This document shows positions 1,727 to 35,814 of a DNA stretch of 35,814 nt, one piece after another; within the stretch, counting starts at the first letter, position 1; each line of letters starts with the position of its first letter. Location of the stretch: the IMG/VR virus record IMGVR_UViG_3300048591_000615, positions 1 to 35,814 of that record. One strand, 5' to 3'. A model generated the notes under the pieces. That model saw nothing but the letters and a program-made list of their open reading frames with translations, made no database searches and had not been told where the DNA came from. This DNA is from a virus. The translations under genes were made by a program, and so were the position numbers.

Positions 1727-1776
1727 TGGCGCGTCCTGAGAGATTCGAACTCCCGACCTCTTGGTTCGAAGCCAAA
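1727..1776 (-). other. attP core: 3' half of a tRNA-Arg(UCG)
   Basis: Read on the minus strand this is a tRNA 3' half: anticodon loop CTTCGAA (anticodon UCG), 3' anticodon stem, five-base variable loop, T arm with TTCGAAT loop, 3' acceptor strand AGGACGC, discriminator G and encoded CCA (TGG at 1727-1729). There is no D arm or 5' acceptor strand, so it is not a working tRNA. Identity ends around the anticodon stem. This is the standard form of an attP that restores the 3' end of the host tRNA gene on integration. Confidence 0.9.
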
Positions 1777-1784
1777 AATCGAAC

Positions 1785-1793
1785 TTATCCACA
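1785..1793 (+). promoter_or_regulatory. Perfect DnaA box next to the att core
   Basis: TTATCCACA, the consensus DnaA box, 9 bp from the att core and upstream of int. Two more perfect copies lie at 10123-10131 and 12245-12253, all non-coding and on the same strand. Confidence 0.6.
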
Positions 1794-1866
1794 GGCTACC
1801 ACCTTCTATACTGTATTCCCATGAAACCCTTGAATAACGGCCTTTTCGGGGCTTTTTTGCCGTTTT

Positions 1867-1897
1867 TTGCTTTTCAAGATCATACCAGTTCTATACC
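1867..1897 (+). promoter_or_regulatory. int: Candidate integrase promoter
   Basis: A TATACC -10 element at 1892-1897 with a weak upstream -35 (TTGCTT at 1867-1872, or GCTTTT at 1869-1874). The 21 bases at 1876-1896 match 12108-12128 at all but one position. That second copy is also a promoter-like site with TATACT, so the two may share a regulator. Confidence 0.5.
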
Positions 1898-1913
1898 TTC
1901 CATTTCGCGTTCG

Positions 1914-1932
1914 TGTGACTTTTGTGACTTTT
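1914..1932 (+). repeat. int: Candidate integrase arm-type sites, right pair
   Basis: Two perfect TGTGACTTTT copies at 1914-1923 and 1923-1932, overlapping by one T, in the same orientation as the pair at 1662-1683. They sit directly before the GGGAGG ribosome binding site and GTG start of int. Integrase bound here could repress its own transcription or translation. Confidence 0.65.
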
Positions 1933-1943
1933 TGGGAGGCCTT

Positions 1944-3110
1944 GTGAGCATCGCATTGACCAAAAAATTCCTCGATGAAATGGCATTTCCAAAATCTGGC
2001 CAAGCCGTCCACTGGGACACCAAAATAGCCCGCTTTGGGGTCAAGGTCTCCCACCTTGGAACTATCAGCTTTATCCTGGATTACACCGTACGCGGCAAGC
2101 GGTCTCGGACTGTAATTGGCCGCTATGGGGACATTACCCTAAACGAGGCACGTCAAAGGGCCCTTGAATGGCAAAGGTCGAAAGAGGCCGGGAACCTCAA
2201 ACCAAGCACCCCAAAGACCGCAGGCCTTTCCTTCGAGTCGATGTGTGACATTTACTGGGAGCGCTACGGCCAGAGAAAGAAATCTGGATACTCCGACGCC
2301 TGCCGGATCCGAAAATACCTGAAGCCTGCTTTTGGAGACACGCCGCTGGTCTCTCTTAGCAGGGCCCAGGTTGCCACGTTTCACCATGAACTGGGAAAGA
2401 CCAGACCCTATGAGGCCAATCGCAACGTGGAACTCATCGGCCGCATTATAGAACTCGCCAAGTCCTGGGGTTTTTATCCGGAAGAGCAGCCGAGCCCTAC
2501 AAAGAGAATTGAAGCTTTCCCGGAGATCAAGCGGGAGCGGTTTGTCACCGTCGAAGAGATGCCCCGACTGGTGGCTGCGATTGACGAGGAGGAGACCCCT
2601 TACGTTAAAGCTTTGATTTGGATGTACCTGCTGTTGGGGCTTAGAAAGAATGAGCTACTGCGCCTGAAGTGGTCAGATATCGACATGAAGGCCAAAACAA
2701 TAACCATAGCGGAGCCCAAGGGCAGACATGGCACGAAATCGCATGTATTGCCGCTTCCCAAAGCCGTATCAGACCTTTTAAAGAAAGTGCCGAAGGTTGT
2801 CGGAAATCCGTACATGTTCCCTGGCTTTTATCGTGGGACGCATTTGACGGTTATTGATAGGCCGTGGCGTCGTATTCGGGCCAAGGCAGGGCTTGAAGAT
2901 GTGCGCATCCATGATTTGCGTCGAACGCTTGGAAGCTGGATGGCTCAGAGTGGAGTGCCAATCAATATCATCGGCAAGATCTTAAACCACAGCCAGCTTC
3001 AAACGACTCAGATTTATGCGCGTCTTTCGACTGAGCCTCTGCGCGAAGTAATGGACGAACATGCGGAGCGGGTACTCAGGAGCGTGAAAAAGGGACAGCC
3101 TTTAGCTTGA
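1944..3110 (+). CDS. int: Tyrosine recombinase (phage integrase)
   Basis: 388 aa from GTG at 1944, chosen because GGGAGG lies 4 bp upstream and because the arm-binding domain begins here. The open frame extends further upstream through att DNA without a good ribosome site. The N-terminal DUF4102-like arm-binding domain (about 1-80) is followed by a SAM-like core-binding domain (about 95-185) and the catalytic domain. The catalytic set is visible: Arg in GLRKNELLRLKWSDI (about 234), Lys in GRHGTKSH (about 265), HDLRR (about 323-327), His in LNHS (about 349) and the nucleophile Tyr in TQIYARL (about 358). It catalyses integration between the attP core and a host tRNA-Arg gene. The 3' end overlaps the convergent excisionase-like gene by 35 bp. 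Confidence 0.95.
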   Translation: MSIALTKKFLDEMAFPKSGQAVHWDTKIARFGVKVSHLGTISFILDYTVRGKRSRTVIGRYGDITLNEARQRALEWQRSKEAGNLKPSTPKTAGLSFESMCDIYWERYGQRKKSGYSDACRIRKYLKPAFGDTPLVSLSRAQVATFHHELGKTRPYEANRNVELIGRIIELAKSWGFYPEEQPSPTKRIEAFPEIKRERFVTVEEMPRLVAAIDEEETPYVKALIWMYLLLGLRKNELLRLKWSDIDMKAKTITIAEPKGRHGTKSHVLPLPKAVSDLLKKVPKVVGNPYMFPGFYRGTHLTVIDRPWRRIRAKAGLEDVRIHDLRRTLGSWMAQSGVPINIIGKILNHSQLQTTQIYARLSTEPLREVMDEHAERVLRSVKKGQPLA

Positions 3111-3363
3111 CGGTTTCATGCGAGGTTGAGCGGTATGCCCTTTTTTTAACCCAGTCAACCAAGGCCCGCCTGGTGTAGCCACACTTTTTGGGTGAAATCC
3201 TGACAAATTCCGGCCCGCCTCCGGTTGACCTGAGCTTTGACAGATAACGCTGAGTAGTTCCGAGAAACTTGGCCGCGTCGATTGTCAGCAGCAAAGCATC
3301 TGGGTCTTCGAGAAATTCAATTGGCACATCCGGGATCAACTTTCCGTTTTCATCGCGTCTCAT
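3076..3363 (-). CDS. Excisionase-like HTH protein
   Basis: 95 aa. The middle (LLTIDAAKFLGTTQRYLSKL ... GGGPEFVRI ... YTRRALVDWV) is a MerR/AlpA-type winged helix-turn-helix (HTH_17 style), as found in excisionases and AlpA regulators. An AAAGGAG ribosome site precedes the ATG. It is the last gene of the leftward early operon and converges on int with a 35-bp overlap, a typical xis position. Its likely role is directing excision and bending att DNA. A regulator of int is the alternative. Confidence 0.75.
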   Translation of the reverse strand: MRRDENGKLIPDVPIEFLEDPDALLLTIDAAKFLGTTQRYLSKLRSTGGGPEFVRISPKKCGYTRRALVDWVKKRAYRSTSHETVKLKAVPFSRS

Positions 3364-4291: not shown

Positions 4292-4541
4292 TCCACAATC
4301 CTCTCTTTCTCAATCGCCCAATGAGCATGATCCCATCCAGCCATGATCGCAGAACAGAACCAAGCCCTAGCGGTATCAAGATCAAAGTCAGGGAACTTTT
4401 TGATAAACTCTCGCGCCCATCGCCATCGCTGATTTTTATTTATGATTGTCTCGCCACAAAGAGCGGTAGTTCTGTCACTCCAATGCGTCATTGCGTACCA
4501 GCCAGCATATTTATGAATGTAAAATTTGCCGGGTTCGAGGT

Positions 4542-4545
<4 letters not shown>
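4288..4545 (-). CDS. Small early protein, unknown; intact copy of a duplicated start
   Basis: 85 aa, Trp-rich (AGWYAMTHWSD, RWRWAREF, AGWDHAHWAIEKE). The start overlaps the stop of the Gly-rich repeat ORF as ATGA. The first ten residues (MNLEPGKFYI) and the underlying DNA recur at 5036-5064, where a copy of the gene start is cut off after 14 codons. The DTARAWF segment resembles DTARWLV in the next gene. Function unknown. Confidence 0.55.
4517..4545. repeat. 29-bp direct repeat, copy A, bounding a two-gene cassette
   Basis: Matches 5036-5064 at 28 of 29 positions, including 23 consecutive identical bases. On the minus strand both copies encode the start of a protein (M-K/N-LEPGKFYI). The repeats lie 519 bp apart and enclose the genes at 4715-5023 and 4542-4727. 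Confidence 0.9.
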
Positions 4546-4714
<169 letters not shown>

Positions 4715-4727
<13 letters not shown>

Positions 4728-5023
4728 ACAGGCACCGCCTTGATTGATTTCTCTGCTTTAGCAGTGCAGTCCAAAATTTCTATAATCTCTGTCAGCTCAA
4801 CACGGTCAACTTCGCATGGAAATTTACACTCAGCGGGATTGCTTGTGCCTTCCATCGCCAGCTGACTTAATGAAGCCGCGCCAGCCCACCTCCAAAGTCT
4901 TCGAGCATTTTTCAAAACCCCTTCTTTGCCCTTGCGAGAAACAAACTCACCAGCAAAAACACCGGCTGAGTAAGTCCGAAAAATCACGTAACGCTTCTTT
5001 GTTTTCTTCACTGCTTTTTTCAT
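4715..5023 (-). CDS. DUF6948-like phage protein
   Basis: 102 aa. The pattern YVIFRTYSAGVFAGEF ... KNARRLWRWAGAASLSQLA ... FPCEVDRVELTEIIEIL resembles, from memory, the DUF6948 family found in many phages of diverse bacteria. The function of that family is not known to me. The N-terminus is lysine-rich. Its ATG overlaps the stop of the 14-codon remnant as ATGA. It forms the first gene of the cassette between the 29-bp direct repeats, followed by the Gly-rich repeat ORF. Confidence 0.7.
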
Positions 5024-5822: not shown

Positions 5823-6035
5823 TTATCTCGGATTCACTCGTGCCCGAAGCCGCTCTGCCTCAATGTGGACTCGTAGGACATCCACGATGCGACTCGCGCA
5901 GTTGCAGGCCGCGTTAACGGTGTCTGGTGTCACATTCTTTTCTGTGACTGACTCCATTAGCCCTTGAAGGGTGGTCACAACTTTCTTTGTGGAATAGATT
6001 TCCTCGACTCCGGCCCTTTGTACTTCTTTTGACAT
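5823..6035 (-). CDS. Small early protein, unknown
   Basis: 70 aa, starting immediately after the stop of the HTH protein gene (6036). The C-terminal half (TPDTVNAACNCASRIVDVLRVHIEAERLR) is a two-helix segment common to small phage proteins that often sit beside replication or HTH genes. No role can be assigned. Confidence 0.55.
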   Translation of the reverse strand: MSKEVQRAGVEEIYSTKKVVTTLQGLMESVTEKNVTPDTVNAACNCASRIVDVLRVHIEAERLRARVNPR

Positions 6036-6797
6036 TCAAACCTCCGTGGCTAGTGACGCGACTCGAAACGCTGTTTCATAAAGGCTTTTGCATCCGTGTA
6101 CTTCCATTTGAAAGCTTGCCATTGCCTCAATTCCGGCGATGACCGTCGGTTTTAGGCTTAACTTTCTTTTTTTAATGACTGCTGCCATCACGACCCAGGG
6201 GACAAGCTTTGGTCTGCAATTACCTCTAGAGCCAGGAGCACCAGCTGAAGTCTTCACAGAGTCAAGGGTTTCCCCGATAAGCTGCTCGGCGAGCATTAGC
6301 GGTAGGCCGTTGATGTAGCGAGTCGACGACGACATGCGCGACATGACTTCTTTGACAGCGTGATGAGTCCCACGGTTTAGTTTTTTTGCGATCCAGCCGC
6401 GCTCTTGCAAACCGGAGTATTGGAGTAGGGTGATTAGCTCTTCGGCGCTCCATGTGTCACGGCGACGCTTGTCCTTGGTTTTGTACCTACTTGGATTCAC
6501 CTTTATTGCTCGAAGCAGGGCCGAGCGCACCTGGCTTGTTTTTAATCCAGTTTCCTCTGCAACTTCAGCGGCTGTTCTTGTTTTGTAGAGGTCATAAATT
6601 TCTTCAATTCTGTGGTAGTACCCGCCTTTTCTCTTAAAGTAGTTTTTTTGACTGGATAGTCCAAGTTTTCTGCATTGGACTGCGATTGAGCCTCTAGGCC
6701 GATCAAGGTGTTTGGCAATTTCATGGTAAAGCATACCCTTGCGAATCATCGCTTTTATCTGCGTATTTTCCTGTTTTGTGAAGTTTCTTCTATTCAC
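6036..6797 (-). CDS. Multi-HTH DNA-binding protein
   Basis: 253 aa with at least three helix-turn-helix-like segments: residues about 5-45 (NTQIKAMIRKGMLYHEIAKHL), about 60-95 (TAAEVAEETGLKTSQVRSAL) and a homeodomain/Myb-like segment about 113-155 (TWSAEELITLLQYSGLQERG, then IAKKLNRGTHHAVKEVMSRM). The first two resemble Myb/GcrA-like and sigma-region-4-like folds. The ATG overlaps the stop of the sigma-factor gene as ATGA, so the two are co-made. Likely a transcription regulator; a replication-initiator role cannot be excluded because the phage has no other candidate. Confidence 0.65.
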   Translation of the reverse strand: MNRRNFTKQENTQIKAMIRKGMLYHEIAKHLDRPRGSIAVQCRKLGLSSQKNYFKRKGGYYHRIEEIYDLYKTRTAAEVAEETGLKTSQVRSALLRAIKVNPSRYKTKDKRRRDTWSAEELITLLQYSGLQERGWIAKKLNRGTHHAVKEVMSRMSSSTRYINGLPLMLAEQLIGETLDSVKTSAGAPGSRGNCRPKLVPWVVMAAVIKKRKLSLKPTVIAGIEAMASFQMEVHGCKSLYETAFRVASLATEV

Positions 6798-7360
6798 AGT
6801 TCAATCCAATTTATTCGCACGCTGTTTCTTTCTTCGTCTTCTAGATAGTCTTCTAGGCAGGTGCCTAAAATGGCCCCATCCGCCATTTTCTTTCTAACGG
6901 CCGCCACCACCTGAGAAGCCCTTGATTCGCTAAACCCAAATTGCTCTCCCGTTTCGTTCAGGTTGAGCCCATCGATCAGATACGCTGACGCTACTTCTCT
7001 TTGGAGTTCTGTAACTCCTCTTGCATAACGAAAATCAGCTGGTTCAGGTTTTGGATCTCGTCCAATAGCGTCGAAAGCGTCCATTGCGTTATCGTCGCCC
7101 AGTCTCTCACTTGCTTCGTAGACGCAAATTGAATTGTACGACTTGCCTGGTCTACTCCGACTGCCGCGTACCCCTGTGCGACCATAGACCTTGCGTAAAT
7201 AGTCGATAAGCATGTACTTAAGCTTCGTGGTTCTTCCCTCCCAAAGTCTGATGACCGCCTCCTGGGCAAAATCCTCAGCGTCGTCGGCGTGTCCGGCTCT
7301 GATGGCACAATGCGCAGCTTTTGCTCGGTATCGTCTGTAGGTGTCGTCATCGATTTTCAT
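6794..7360 (-). CDS. Phage sigma-70-family factor (regions 2 and 4)
   Basis: 188 aa. Residues about 8-60 fit sigma region 2 (DDAEDFAQEAVIRLWEGR, then KYMLIDYLRKVYGRTG for 2.3/2.4). Residues about 115-157 fit region 4, with the recognition helix in LNETGEQFGFSESRASQVV, close in style to FliA-type sigma factors. Region 1 and a clear region 3 are absent, giving an ECF-like size. It would redirect host RNA polymerase, most plausibly to the phage late operon. It is in the middle of the early operon, the expected timing, and is coupled to a multi-HTH protein that may modulate it. Confidence 0.75.
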   Translation of the reverse strand: MKIDDDTYRRYRAKAAHCAIRAGHADDAEDFAQEAVIRLWEGRTTKLKYMLIDYLRKVYGRTGVRGSRSRPGKSYNSICVYEASERLGDDNAMDAFDAIGRDPKPEPADFRYARGVTELQREVASAYLIDGLNLNETGEQFGFSESRASQVVAAVRKKMADGAILGTCLEDYLEDEERNSVRINWIEL

Positions 7361-7363
7361 CCC

Positions 7364-7597
7364 TCACTTGCTCAACTCCCTCACCGCTTTAATCACCCAG
7401 GACTGCGTTTCCGGCTTCATTCCTGATTGTAGGGCCCTGTTTAAGTGCTCCAGGGCGACTGAGACATTAGTACTTTCTCGAAACGGTTTGGCATAAAGCT
7501 CGGCACCGCGCAAATGCTTCACCGAATCCGGCATACCCCGACGCTCTTCTGCTGCAGCGTCACAACCTGTTTCAATGCCTGTGTGGTGTACCGTCAT
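7364..7597 (-). CDS. Small early protein, unknown
   Basis: 77 aa from ATG at 7597, preferred over a start at 7645 because AGAAGGAAA precedes it and the ATG overlaps the stop of the membrane peptide gene as ATGA. The helical C-terminus reads SVALEHLNRALQSGMKP ... VIKAVREL. No family recognised. It ends three bases before the sigma-factor gene. Confidence 0.5.
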   Translation of the reverse strand: MTVHHTGIETGCDAAAEERRGMPDSVKHLRGAELYAKPFRESTNVSVALEHLNRALQSGMKPETQSWVIKAVRELSK

Positions 7598-7701
7598 AGT
7601 TTCCTTCTGACCTCGTAAAACATGACCACAAATAGTGGCAAGCAAACGACTAAGGCCATCGCCCTGATAATGGTGTCAGCAATCTGTCTGGCTTTTTTCA
7701 T
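7594..7701 (-). CDS. 35-residue membrane peptide
   Basis: 35 aa from ATG at 7701, with TGAGG upstream. Basic N-terminus, one membrane segment (about 12-29, IIRAMALVVCLPLFVVMF) and basic C-terminus (YEVRRKL). The stop overlaps the next start as ATGA. A longer frame to 7782 exists but overlaps the zinc-ribbon gene. Possible inner-membrane effector; function unknown. Confidence 0.5.
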   Translation of the reverse strand: MKKARQIADTIIRAMALVVCLPLFVVMFYEVRRKL

Positions 7702-8460: not shown

Positions 8461-9435
8461 CTAGAAGGGTATTGCTACGTCTTCCGGCATACTGGTGGGG
8501 ATTACGGCTCCACCAGAGTCTAAATTGGCGCTTTCAAACTGAACTTGACGAGAAAATAGAGTCACCATGTTGATGAACTCTTTGGCCATGGCGCTTACAG
8601 TCTTGCCCTCTTTTTTGGCGCTGTTATAAAGCCAATCAGCGTAACTTTTAAGATCATCAAGCTGGCAATCGATTACCTTTTTACCCTTTAGCTTTTTGCC
8701 GAAAGGCACGGTGTAATTCATCAAGTGCTCAAGCTCATCGGGGTTCAGGCCGCTTACCTGGTTGTGAGGCACTTCCATTTGAACATCGACGAAAGAAGGC
8801 TCTGCGTCGATAACCGGAGCTTTAGCTTTTGCCGGGGCTGCCCCCGTTGTAGCTGCGAAAGTTTTTACTACCGGAACATCGATGATCTCACCTTGCTCAT
8901 TTACCGAAACATCCGGATCAAGCTCTTCAGGTGTGTAGCTGACACCCTGCAAAGCATCAGGGAAAAGAGCGCGGGCCATCTCGCTGATGCACCGGCTTCT
9001 GAGCATCGCTCTGGAAAACTTCTTCCAGTTGTCTTTGCCGGTAAGGTCGGCCTTTCTCGCGTCGTCCATTGTCCAGGTAACAATAAAAGGCTTCCCACCT
9101 GGTCGCGTGGCTTCAATCGTCACCGCTTCGTTTTCGTAACGCGGGTAGTTGATGATTGCCCCGGGCGCGTGCTTGTAAATCATGCCGAGCATCGATTCTG
9201 CGCTCATACAGGGCTTGCCTTGAATGATGTAGATGTGAGCAAAAGCCAGCATCATAGGCATTCCAAGCTCTCTGCCCTTTAGTGCGATTGCTATGGCTTG
9301 CTCTGGGGTTCGGATTGTAGACGGCAAAAAACCAGACTTTACCAGCACGCTGCACTGCGTGAGCATCTGCTGCCACTCTGAGGCCGACGGCATAAGCGCA
9401 ATGGCTTGATTTTCGATTCTTGCTAGTTGGTTCAT
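8461..9435 (-). CDS. recT: RecT-family single-strand annealing protein
   Basis: 324 aa. Residues about 30-90 hold the RecT/Bet family signature: SGFLPSTIRTPEQAIAIALK, then GRELGMPMMLAFAHIYIIQG and KPCMSAESML. The C-terminal part (after about 195) is a lower-complexity Ala/Pro linker and a short helical domain. It anneals complementary single strands for recombination and end joining. It starts two bases after the Gp157-like gene. No RecE or Exo partner nuclease is visible in the early operon. A RusA resolvase is encoded elsewhere. Confidence 0.88.
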   Translation of the reverse strand: MNQLARIENQAIALMPSASEWQQMLTQCSVLVKSGFLPSTIRTPEQAIAIALKGRELGMPMMLAFAHIYIIQGKPCMSAESMLGMIYKHAPGAIINYPRYENEAVTIEATRPGGKPFIVTWTMDDARKADLTGKDNWKKFSRAMLRSRCISEMARALFPDALQGVSYTPEELDPDVSVNEQGEIIDVPVVKTFAATTGAAPAKAKAPVIDAEPSFVDVQMEVPHNQVSGLNPDELEHLMNYTVPFGKKLKGKKVIDCQLDDLKSYADWLYNSAKKEGKTVSAMAKEFINMVTLFSRQVQFESANLDSGGAVIPTSMPEDVAIPF

Positions 9436-9437
9436 GC

Positions 9438-9989
9438 TTAGGCCTTTTTGATTTTAAATTGCGGGTTAAAGTTTTCTTTCAGCGATGCACAAGAAAGCGG
9501 GAATGTTCCAGTCTTCAGCGCCGCCTTGATTTCTGTCTTTTTCCACGAGTAGCTGCGCTTTTCGGTGACGTACTCGGGAGCTTGCTCAAAGTCTTCTGGT
9601 GAAGGCTCGCGCTTTAAAACAGTTTCCTCTGAGCGCCTGAGGCTGATTTGGAATTCGGTGCCTGGAAGCTTCTCAAAGCCACCGGAGCGCATGGTAAACG
9701 AGATGTAGTCCAGGAACCCGGCGAGCTGCCTTTCGAGCGTCCTGGCCGCCTCAGCGTGTTGCTTGGCGTATTCCCGGTGCCTCTTTACTCGGTCTTCAAT
9801 CTCGTCAACAAAGTGCGAGCAGTTATCGACCTTGTTTCTGAGCACGACGCCAAGCTGCGAGTGCTGCTCTGGAGTGAGCGAGTAGTTGCCCTCGTCAACC
9901 GCCGTGAGAATTGTCACGAGGTCGAGAAGACGCATTTCGGTTGAGATCTCGGGGAGTGCTGTAGTGATTTCTAGTGATTCTGTTTGCAT
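9438..9989 (-). CDS. Gp157-like phage protein
   Basis: 183 aa. Long helical middle (about 55-90, KVDNCSHFVDEIEDRVKRHR) followed by KLPGTEFQISLRRSEE and the EYVTEKRSYSWKKTEIKAAL block. This is the plan of the siphovirus Gp157 family (PF05565), usually next to single-strand annealing proteins. Members were named from streptococcal phage work; the biochemical role is unclear. It is the first gene of the leftward early operon, with AAAGGA upstream of the ATG. Confidence 0.8.
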   Translation of the reverse strand: MQTESLEITTALPEISTEMRLLDLVTILTAVDEGNYSLTPEQHSQLGVVLRNKVDNCSHFVDEIEDRVKRHREYAKQHAEAARTLERQLAGFLDYISFTMRSGGFEKLPGTEFQISLRRSEETVLKREPSPEDFEQAPEYVTEKRSYSWKKTEIKAALKTGTFPLSCASLKENFNPQFKIKKA

Positions 9990-10341: not shown

Positions 10342-10677
10342 ATGGGGAAAGCGATGTCGATTGCGGCAAACATTCTTGGAAAAAACATAGCGGCGTGGCG
10401 GGACAAAAGCGGACTTACTCAGGTTGCCTTTGCAACCATGATGGGAGTAGCCCCGAGCGCGGTCGCGCACTGGGAGACCGGGCGTTCAATGCCTGGAGGC
10501 GATTTATTAGACCTTTTGTGTCAAACCATGGGCGTAACCCACGCCGAACTTTTGTCAAACTCTGGGTTTGAATTTAAACCGATATCAGCGCCTGTACGCG
10601 AAGTTTCCGTTGCTGAGGCGTTGAGAGTTGTGAATAGAAACATCTCAAAGCTCGTCATCAAAAAGAAATCGAAATAG
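10342..10677 (+). CDS. XRE-family repressor
   Basis: 111 aa. Residues about 8-66 form a lambda-Cro/XRE helix-turn-helix (NIAAWRDKSGLTQVAFATMM, then GVAPSAVAHWETGRSMPGGD). The rest is a short basic tail with no LexA-like Ser/Lys autoprotease domain, so it is not obviously inducible by RecA cleavage. An in-frame ATG at 10354 is an alternative start. It faces the early operon across the control region, the standard place for the lysogeny repressor. Confidence 0.85.
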   Translation: MGKAMSIAANILGKNIAAWRDKSGLTQVAFATMMGVAPSAVAHWETGRSMPGGDLLDLLCQTMGVTHAELLSNSGFEFKPISAPVREVSVAEALRVVNRNISKLVIKKKSK

Positions 10678-13603: not shown

Positions 13604-13678
13604 CATTTTTATCTCATTTAAATGCTAAAGTTATTCCTGCAAGTGCCGATAAGTCTTTTATCAGGGGGGCGCGGCACG

Positions 13679-13933
13679 ATGTACAAGGTGACGATTTCAA
13701 AACAAGCGGTGAAGCAGTTCAGCAAAATCGCTACGGCTTATCAGGGTGCGATTCGGGAAGCGATTGACGGACTAGCGGAAGACCCACGGCCAGATGGCTG
13801 TAAAAAAATGAAGGGATGCGACGAGACGTATCGAATCAAAGTCGGGAAGAAGTATCGAGTGATTTACATAATTGACGATGGTGCTCTATTGGTCGAGGTG
13901 ATTGAAGCCGGAACCAGGGGCAGCGTCTACTAA
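13679..13933 (+). CDS. RelE/ParE-family toxin
   Basis: 84 aa from ATG at 13679, with GGGGGG upstream; an earlier in-frame start would lie in the control region. The pattern MYKVTISKQAVKQFSKI ... YRIKVGKKYRVIYIIDDG ... VEVIEAGTRGSVY is that of RelE/ParE toxins: N-terminal helices, then a beta-sheet with the basic K-x-x-YRVIY core. RelE types cut mRNA at the ribosome and ParE types poison gyrase; the sequence does not decide between them. The toxin gene precedes the antitoxin gene, the less common order. Confidence 0.85.
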   Translation: MYKVTISKQAVKQFSKIATAYQGAIREAIDGLAEDPRPDGCKKMKGCDETYRIKVGKKYRVIYIIDDGALLVEVIEAGTRGSVY

Positions 13934-13945
13934 GTGAGGTGAAAG

Positions 13946-14242
13946 ATGGGACGGCCAAAAATGAACGAAGCAAAAAAGAAAATTTCTCTCAATGTGTCGC
14001 TCAGTCCTCAGATCATGGAAGTTCTGAATCGCGTTGAAAACAAGTCCAGCATGGTTGACCGTTGCGTCGGAATCGCCAGCGGTGTCAGCGAAGTTTTCAA
14101 GGCTTTACGCGATAAGACCATGACCCTTGAAGACGCGCTGGAAGAGCTTGAGGACTTTGCGAGTATTTACGAGGCGCAATTCGAAGAAAGCTTTCCCATT
14201 GCGATCCTCGAAAAGCGGGATATCCGCAAAACCGGGAGTTAA
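13946..14242 (+). CDS. Ribbon-helix-helix antitoxin partner
   Basis: 98 aa, 12 bp after the toxin, with GAGGTGA before the ATG. Residues about 11-40 (KKISLNVSLSPQIMEVLNRV, then ENKSSMVDRC) look like a CopG/ribbon-helix-helix DNA-binding domain. The acidic C-terminal half (LEDALEELEDFASIYEAQFEE) would wrap the toxin. It probably binds the palindrome at 13576-13603 for autoregulation. The pair may stabilise the prophage or limit other phages. Confidence 0.72.
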   Translation: MGRPKMNEAKKKISLNVSLSPQIMEVLNRVENKSSMVDRCVGIASGVSEVFKALRDKTMTLEDALEELEDFASIYEAQFEESFPIAILEKRDIRKTGS

Positions 14243-20166: not shown

Positions 20167-20371
20167 TTGCTGCCTGCTCAGTAATTTGGTGCTCTAAGTC
20201 AGAAAGGATGATGCCCTGAAGCTCTTCTTTAGACTTCTGCACCAGGCTTATGCCGCTTTGACTTGCTTGATAGGTCAGGAGACTGAACCCGCCTTCTTTT
20301 CCCTTTACCACCCGAAACACCTTGAACGGTTGCGCCGGATTTACCGATTTTGACGAGTCCTTTTTCGACAT
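20126..20371 (-). CDS. Small late protein, unknown
   Basis: 81 aa. Basic, Ser-rich head, then FKVFRVVKGKEGGFSLLTYQ, which looks like a short beta unit, and an acidic helical tail. It overlaps the gene before it by 143 bp in another frame and the one after by 41 bp. No family is recognised. Confidence 0.45.
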   Translation of the reverse strand: MSKKDSSKSVNPAQPFKVFRVVKGKEGGFSLLTYQASQSGISLVQKSKEELQGIILSDLEHQITEQAANDTSKDVPKYDGF

Positions 20372-20588
20372 CAGTGCTCCGCTCTTCGATCAGTTGAATA
20401 TGGTTGTCCATGGCAGCCACCAGGCTGTTGAGATAGGTGATTGCTTTGTTCATGTTGGTCAAAAACTCAGCGGTGCCTTGGAAGTGGCCGTGATTGAACA
20501 CCCAAAAGACGCAATCCAAGGCCTCACGCCCAGATTTCATGGTTTCTAAAGCGTTCTGCTCATGCGATTTCTGCAATTGAGCCTCCAT
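20229..20588 (-). CDS. Small helical late protein, unknown
   Basis: 119 aa. Residues 1-75 are helical (QNALETMKSGREALDCVFWV, AEFLTNMNKAITYLNSLVAA); the tail is basic (GKGKRRRVQSP, KSKRHKPG). An in-frame TTG at codon 5 has GGAGG ahead of it and may be the true start. The long overlap with the 81-aa frame means that one C-terminus or the other may be shorter than shown, or the overlap is real. Confidence 0.5.
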   Translation of the reverse strand: MEAQLQKSHEQNALETMKSGREALDCVFWVFNHGHFQGTAEFLTNMNKAITYLNSLVAAMDNHIQLIEERSTDVEKGLVKIGKSGATVQGVSGGKGKRRRVQSPDLSSKSKRHKPGAEV

Positions 20589-20614
20589 AGGTTTTAACTA
20601 TTGAATGTGCTCAA

Positions 20615-20644
20615 AGTATCTACAGAAGCTATGGGTGCTGTCAA
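20615..20644 (-). promoter_or_regulatory. Candidate internal promoter before the packaging genes
   Basis: On the minus strand TTGACA (20644-20639), 18-bp spacer, GATACT (20620-20615), in the only sizeable gap between the ejection genes and the terminase block. It could let host polymerase transcribe terminase, portal, scaffold and lysis genes. Confidence 0.5.
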
Positions 20645-20645
20645 G

Positions 20646-35687: not shown

Positions 35688-35814
35688 CATCAGGCGGTGA
35701 GGCCCGGTAGTCAAGACGCGCCCATTTAAGGGTAGCGACAGATTAAGCGCCCTTCACGGTTGCTCTTCACTGGCTGCGACTTACTACCAGCCACGCCCTA
35801 AGAGGTGGCGACTG
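35688..35814. repeat. Terminal direct repeat, right copy
   Basis: Identical to 1-127. See the left copy. It marks closure of a circular unit of about 35,687 bp. Confidence 0.95.

Follow-up and report, generated by a model that had tools for sequence, protein, structure and literature searches.

A divergent phage sigma factor subfamily with a shortened region 2 and a multi-HTH partner gene

A two-domain sigma factor in the early operon of a temperate phage

The gene at 6794-7360(-) in this virus raises the question of whether a temperate phage can use a small sigma factor of its own for late transcription, as an earlier note on the same DNA had proposed. The window, by which we mean the whole stretch analysed, is a 35,814-bp viral record from IMG/VR. 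Its first 127 bp (1-127) are identical to its last 127 bp (35688-35814), and we therefore treat it as a complete genome of approximately 35.7 kb. Direct terminal repeats of 127 bp were also seen in three relatives (G001, G003 and G008) and one of 123 bp in a more distant phage, G071; they probably arose as k-mer overlaps when circular or permuted genomes were assembled.

The description of the phage as temperate is borne out by an integrase gene (1761-3110, +; family match), an attP-like region (1606-1943) and an Xre-type repressor-like gene (10342-10677, +). The attP-like region contains the 3' part of a tRNA-Arg (approximately 1727-1771), on both sides of which lie GTGTGACTTTT repeats of the arm-type integrase site kind; an exact search for a host tRNA attB gave no match. 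Divergent from the repressor-like gene, a leftward early operon runs from 9989 down to 3076. It is headed by genes for a RecT annealing protein and a Gp157/Gam-like protein (8461-9989, -), contains the sigma gene, and ends with an AlpA/excisionase-like HTH_17 ORF (3076-3363, -; weak match, E = 0.02). The structural block is also leftward, and its terminase, portal and major head protein were recognised. Portal and tail profiles identified 97 viral loci as structural relatives, and a Silvanigrella phage is related at 21-28% identity; a tblastn search of plasmids with the tail protein gave no match.

The 188-aa product of 6794-7360(-), which begins at an ATG, is, as judged from its sequence, a divergent two-domain sigma factor that combines an ECF-like region 2 with a FliA/WhiG-type region 4. 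It matched TIGR02937 (sigma-70 superfamily) with E = 1.2e-8 and 34.8 bits, short of the cut-off of 42.9 bits. It also matched PHROG 1740 (sigma factor) at 3.8e-7, an ECF-type family that E. coli SigE matches at 1e-41. Pfam matches to region 4 (1.7e-4) and region 2 (PF04542, 2.3e-3) were both below the curated cut-offs. Region 2 (approximately residues 5-60) is weak when scored alone, is shortened between regions 2.2 and 2.4, and carries a core-binding-type region 2.2 motif, DDAEDFAQE. A linker (61-113) with a region-3.2-like stretch leads to region 4 (114-162), whose HTH is supported by TIGR02937, PF04545 and PDB structures of FliA and WhiG, and a C-terminal tail ending in WIEL follows. Directly upstream of the gene lies a 93-aa ORF (7364..7645, -); with 3 bp between its stop and the sigma start, translation of the two is probably coupled.

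Comparison with known groups placed the two domains differently. Region 4 scored z = 6.1 against FliA but 0.4 against SigE, and region 2 was closest to SigE (z = 5.0). The likeness to FliA and WhiG (sigma28, group 3) is in region 4, particularly LNLxExG...SESRxSQ. In contrast to those proteins, the window sigma has a region 2.2-2.4 that is approximately 13-15 residues shorter and falls far below the family cut-offs (TIGR02479, 17.6 bits against 189.6). It also lacks domain 3: 59 residues separate LIDYLRK from VTELQRE, compared with approximately 100 in E. coli FliA, which is too short for that domain and leaves sigma-2 and sigma-4 only. ECF factors (group 4; E. coli SigE and FecI) are similar in size, two-domain plan and the DDAEDFAQE-type region 2.2, but differ in that the window protein has a FliA-type region 4, no L3/2.3 segment and no adjoining ECF-type anti-sigma gene. 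The HMM searches thus recovered the anatomy that the earlier note had read from the letters, namely recognisable regions 2 and 4, a FliA-like region 4 helix, no region 1 and no clear region 3. Structure prediction points the same way: Foldseek with the single-sequence AlphaFold model of the sigma, a poor one (pLDDT 45), returned mostly sigma factors (SigL, BldN, WhiG, SigW, SigE and others; best E 0.039), and the model of the neighbouring HTH protein gave no sigma-dominated list. Both models were made without an alignment (pLDDT 45 and 51, respectively) and provide weak support.

A subfamily that shares a shortened region 2

Direct tblastn searches for homologues of the sigma and its HTH neighbour in annotated phages, and peptide-pattern scans of viral and genome contigs, gave no match because the subfamily is too divergent for these methods. 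Similarly, neither gene had a match at 1e-4 across 19 relatives that are nearly whole and two parts of a further one, in which structural genes and few others match the window. A family search among the structural relatives recovered a 152-aa homologue in G066 that has the same short connection between regions 2.2 and 2.4 as the window. A degenerate-codon scan for this connection motif across 2.9 million viral contigs yielded five stretches, G066 included, all of which encode homologues of the whole sigma protein. Together with the window, these stretches (G066, G068, G069, G070 and G071) define a subfamily of six members, most of them on metagenomic contigs. A leave-one-out profile built from the five homologues identified the window sigma ORF at E = 2.7e-29 and no other window ORF, so the sigma signal is more than chance. 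Profile-profile comparison (hhalign) with E. coli SigE, FecI and FliA gave 97% probability, and the best PDB matches of the profile were FliA and WhiG (2e-8 to 5e-6). TIGR02937 was matched by every member and FliA/WhiG by five. These data establish the window sigma as part of a subfamily that has no family entry of its own among the libraries searched.

In all six members, 23-25 residues separate the aspartate of region 2.2 from that of region 2.4, compared with 35-38 in SigE, FecI, FliA and the small sigma of a structural relative, G011. Approximately 12 residues are therefore missing from each member, and a DF.Q-type region 2.2 motif is present in five of the six (DFAS in G068). Sigma factors use the L3 loop, together with the aromatic part of region 2.3, to capture the -10 element and melt it; from the alignment, we infer that the missing piece corresponds to these parts.

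Two structural relatives encode other small sigma-like proteins, of 175 aa (G011, L100 1435-1962) and 169 aa (G036, L101 1477-1986). Neither shows likeness to region 4 of the window sigma, and that of G011 has normal 2.2-2.4 spacing, which rules both out as subfamily members. This phage group has probably acquired small sigmas on more than one occasion.

A cassette with optional parts and a multi-HTH partner

The gene that follows the sigma, 6036..6797(-), starts with a GTG and overlaps the sigma stop by 4 bp (GTGA), an overlap that the earlier note had already read from the sequence. Its 253-aa product is a DNA-binding protein whose three HTH-like segments, also reported before, were recovered as HMM matches and model helices at approximately residues 3-48, 59-99 and 113-157, with good confidence for the first unit only. 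A third gene, 5823..6035(-), begins directly at the HTH stop with no gap and encodes a 70-aa protein with the motif VTPDTVNAACNCAxRIxDxLRxH; we call proteins of this kind, of about 75 aa, p75. Farther along is a gene for a 102-aa DUF6948 protein (4715..5023, -), beside which lies a low-complexity, Gly/Asn/Ser-rich ORF (4511-4747); a similar ORF follows DUF6948 in G071 (L172:1418-1744).

The order sigma - HTH - p75 is kept in three phages. The genome of G071 is complete, with a terminal repeat of 123 bp, and its structural genes make it a distant cousin of the window (portal 28%, E = 6e-76). It has the same order as the window, with a 16-bp overlap between sigma and HTH, a 4-bp overlap between HTH and a 76-aa gene, and a downstream DUF6948 homologue that is 67% identical. 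In G069, the portal and the gpA terminase are of the lambda family and nothing structural matches the window; the gene order is RusA - sigma (4-bp overlap) - HTH - p75-like - ... - TerL - portal. The 70-76-aa proteins of these three phages are 52-57% identical, and homology between the HTH proteins of the window and G069 extends from end to end (E = 1e-35); the HTH protein of G071 shows a clear relationship at its ends only. The other members are less complete: G070 has the sigma and p75 with no recognised HTH gene, and G066 and G068 have only the sigma, with neither p75 nor a recognisable HTH partner beside it. In G071, G069 and G070, a homologue of the 70-aa gene stands after the sigma, with the HTH gene in between if there is one. 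The gene set is thus a cassette, with optional parts, found across different phage types.

The earlier note had suggested that the second protein is either a partner or an anti-sigma. The first proposal is supported by the overlapping gene order kept in three phages that belong to two unrelated structural types. An anti-sigma role of the HTH protein towards the sigma beside it is very improbable: adjacent, overlapping genes are indeed typical of many sigma/anti-sigma pairs, but the protein carries three DNA-binding HTH units, is homologous to tandem-HTH DNA-binding proteins and gave no match to an anti-sigma domain. The genes next to the window sigma encode HTH, p75 and DUF6948 proteins, with no membrane or zinc anti-sigma among them. 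Instead, the protein resembles T5 D5 (255 aa) in its tandem HTHs, matching phrog_323 at 6e-16 over these units alone. Direct BLASTP with D5 gave E = 0.001 over only 97 aa, an alignment that leaves out the C-terminal domain shared with G069. The T5 record states that D5 is needed for late transcription. The PHROG is not specific: two D5-like matches examined in relatives, in G043 (L109/L153) and G023 (L111), were both HTH-HNH endonucleases, and since PHROG 323, labelled 'D5-like transcriptional regulator', also matches such enzymes, the label is no proof of D5 function.

Candidate targets and proposed mode of action

In lambdoid phages, Q usually occupies the place that follows RusA and precedes the genes for lysis and terminase. 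The G069 cassette lies directly after RusA and upstream of the terminase, in this Q slot, and those of the window and G071 lie within an early operon. Because of the G069 position, control of late genes by the sigma cassette is plausible. The resemblance to lambda Q is one of position; the window sigma is, by sequence, an initiation factor, with no Q homology seen. The sequences show the sigma homology, domain anatomy, common deletion, conserved cassette, gene overlap, early-operon positions and the Q-slot position in G069; core binding, dependence on the partner, the target promoters and late timing are the inferred elements of a model in which this phage sigma subfamily, made early with an HTH partner, recruits host core RNA polymerase and switches on later, most likely late, genes. 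We put the probability of this reading at roughly 55%. The sigma, made from the early operon together with its multi-HTH partner, would bind host core RNA polymerase through the conserved region 2.2 (DDFAQE type), and its FliA/WhiG-type region 4 would contact a -35-like element. As all members lack the segment of approximately 12 residues for capturing and melting the -10 element, the sigma would probably depend on the HTH partner, bound beside the promoter, to start transcription. The pair would then turn on a later set of phage genes, most likely the late genes, in a role like that of the antiterminator Q in lambda or Xpf in PBSX.

Both lytic and temperate phages are known to encode sigma factors (PMC9429907, PMC2716549). 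Xpf of the Bacillus subtilis prophage PBSX is a small sigma-2/sigma-4 (Group IV) protein linked to prophage induction (PMC10141391, PMC9836290). The design is thus only partly the unusual one that the earlier note had supposed, as this sigma-like positive control factor is a precedent and, like the window sigma, a small prophage-encoded sigma-2/sigma-4 protein. The window sigma differs from Xpf in its shortened region 2.2-2.4 and the multi-HTH gene alongside, and PRK06930 ('positive control sigma-like factor', Xpf) was matched by one of the six members (5e-4), with the window protein not reaching E ≤ 0.01. What is new is a subfamily with a constant 2.2-2.4 deletion, a conserved HTH partner and a Q-slot position in an unrelated phage. 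Ordinary homology searches had missed it, and it offers a testable candidate for late-gene activation in phages with no recognisable Q or T7-type polymerase. More speculatively, the cassette could be a mobile two-protein initiation switch, in which a sigma without its melting segment works only with a co-translated multi-HTH partner and takes the place of Q-type antitermination in switching on late genes in otherwise unrelated temperate phages. No sigma was detectable in three complete close relatives (G001, G003 and G008); the cassette is thus one solution among several and is not fixed in this phage group.

The probable start of the window's late block lies in 1572-1760 or 35554-179. Bipartite and local-alignment searches upstream of the late operons of the window, G071 and G069 produced no acceptable common late promoter; the best pairwise motif was shared by G071 and G069, is absent from the window and lies inside an ORF on the G069 side. 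Searches for ECF promoter consensus sequences (SigE, FecI) gave no convincing site. We found a sigma70-like promoter, TTGACA-18-GATACT (10/12 match), at 20644-20615 in a 57-bp gap (20589-20645, -) upstream of gene 20229-20588, which belongs to the part of the late region with terminase and portal. This site, the failure to find a common late promoter, the sigma-less close relatives, the three members with no recognisable HTH partner, the weak score of region 2 and the poor structure models all weigh against the proposed model.

The sigma70-like promoter would be a possible target if the protein were a sigma-derived activator or co-activator that does not initiate by itself, having kept core binding and DNA contact and lost the melting segment, and that modifies the sigma70 holoenzyme or blocks host sigmas. 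The deletion in all six members is in keeping with this idea, but the protein retains region 4, the linker and DDFAQE together, as true sigma factors do, and we regard the idea as improbable. A uniform deletion in a part of sigma thought necessary for promoter opening has been retained in six divergent copies. Should the protein still initiate, it would show which sigma parts are dispensable given a DNA-bound partner; if not, a sigma has been turned into a co-activator.

A sigma28 (FliA)-type site, TAAAGTTA-N11-GCCGATAA, is present at 13626-13652(+), approximately 27 bp before the ATG of a ParE-like toxin gene, and matches the E. coli-type consensus TAAAGTTT-N11-GCCGATAA at 15 of 16 positions. 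G024 has a site of the same type, TAAAGTTA-N12-GCCGATAA, at L135 1334-1361 (-), 49 bp before a small-gene operon. These two were the perfect (12/12) sites in upstream regions; permuted motifs averaged 0.02, and none of 150 reached two. The window site and the FliA-type region 4 are consistent with a sigma that reads sigma28-type promoters and acts on host or accessory (moron) genes, changing lysogen physiology, instead of on the phage late operon; Bacillus phage sigmas do redirect host programmes (PMC2716549, PMC9429907). However, G024 shows no sigma, although its contig may be incomplete, and so host FliA is the simpler reader of such sites, with the phage sigma still a candidate through its region 4. 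The early-operon and Q-slot positions of the cassette also favour phage control, and action on host or accessory genes seems to us unlikely. The toxin gene itself (13622-13933, +; ParE/RelE-like, PF05016, 2.5e-8) likely starts near 13680, and the 98-aa gene that follows it (13946-14242, +) may encode its antitoxin.
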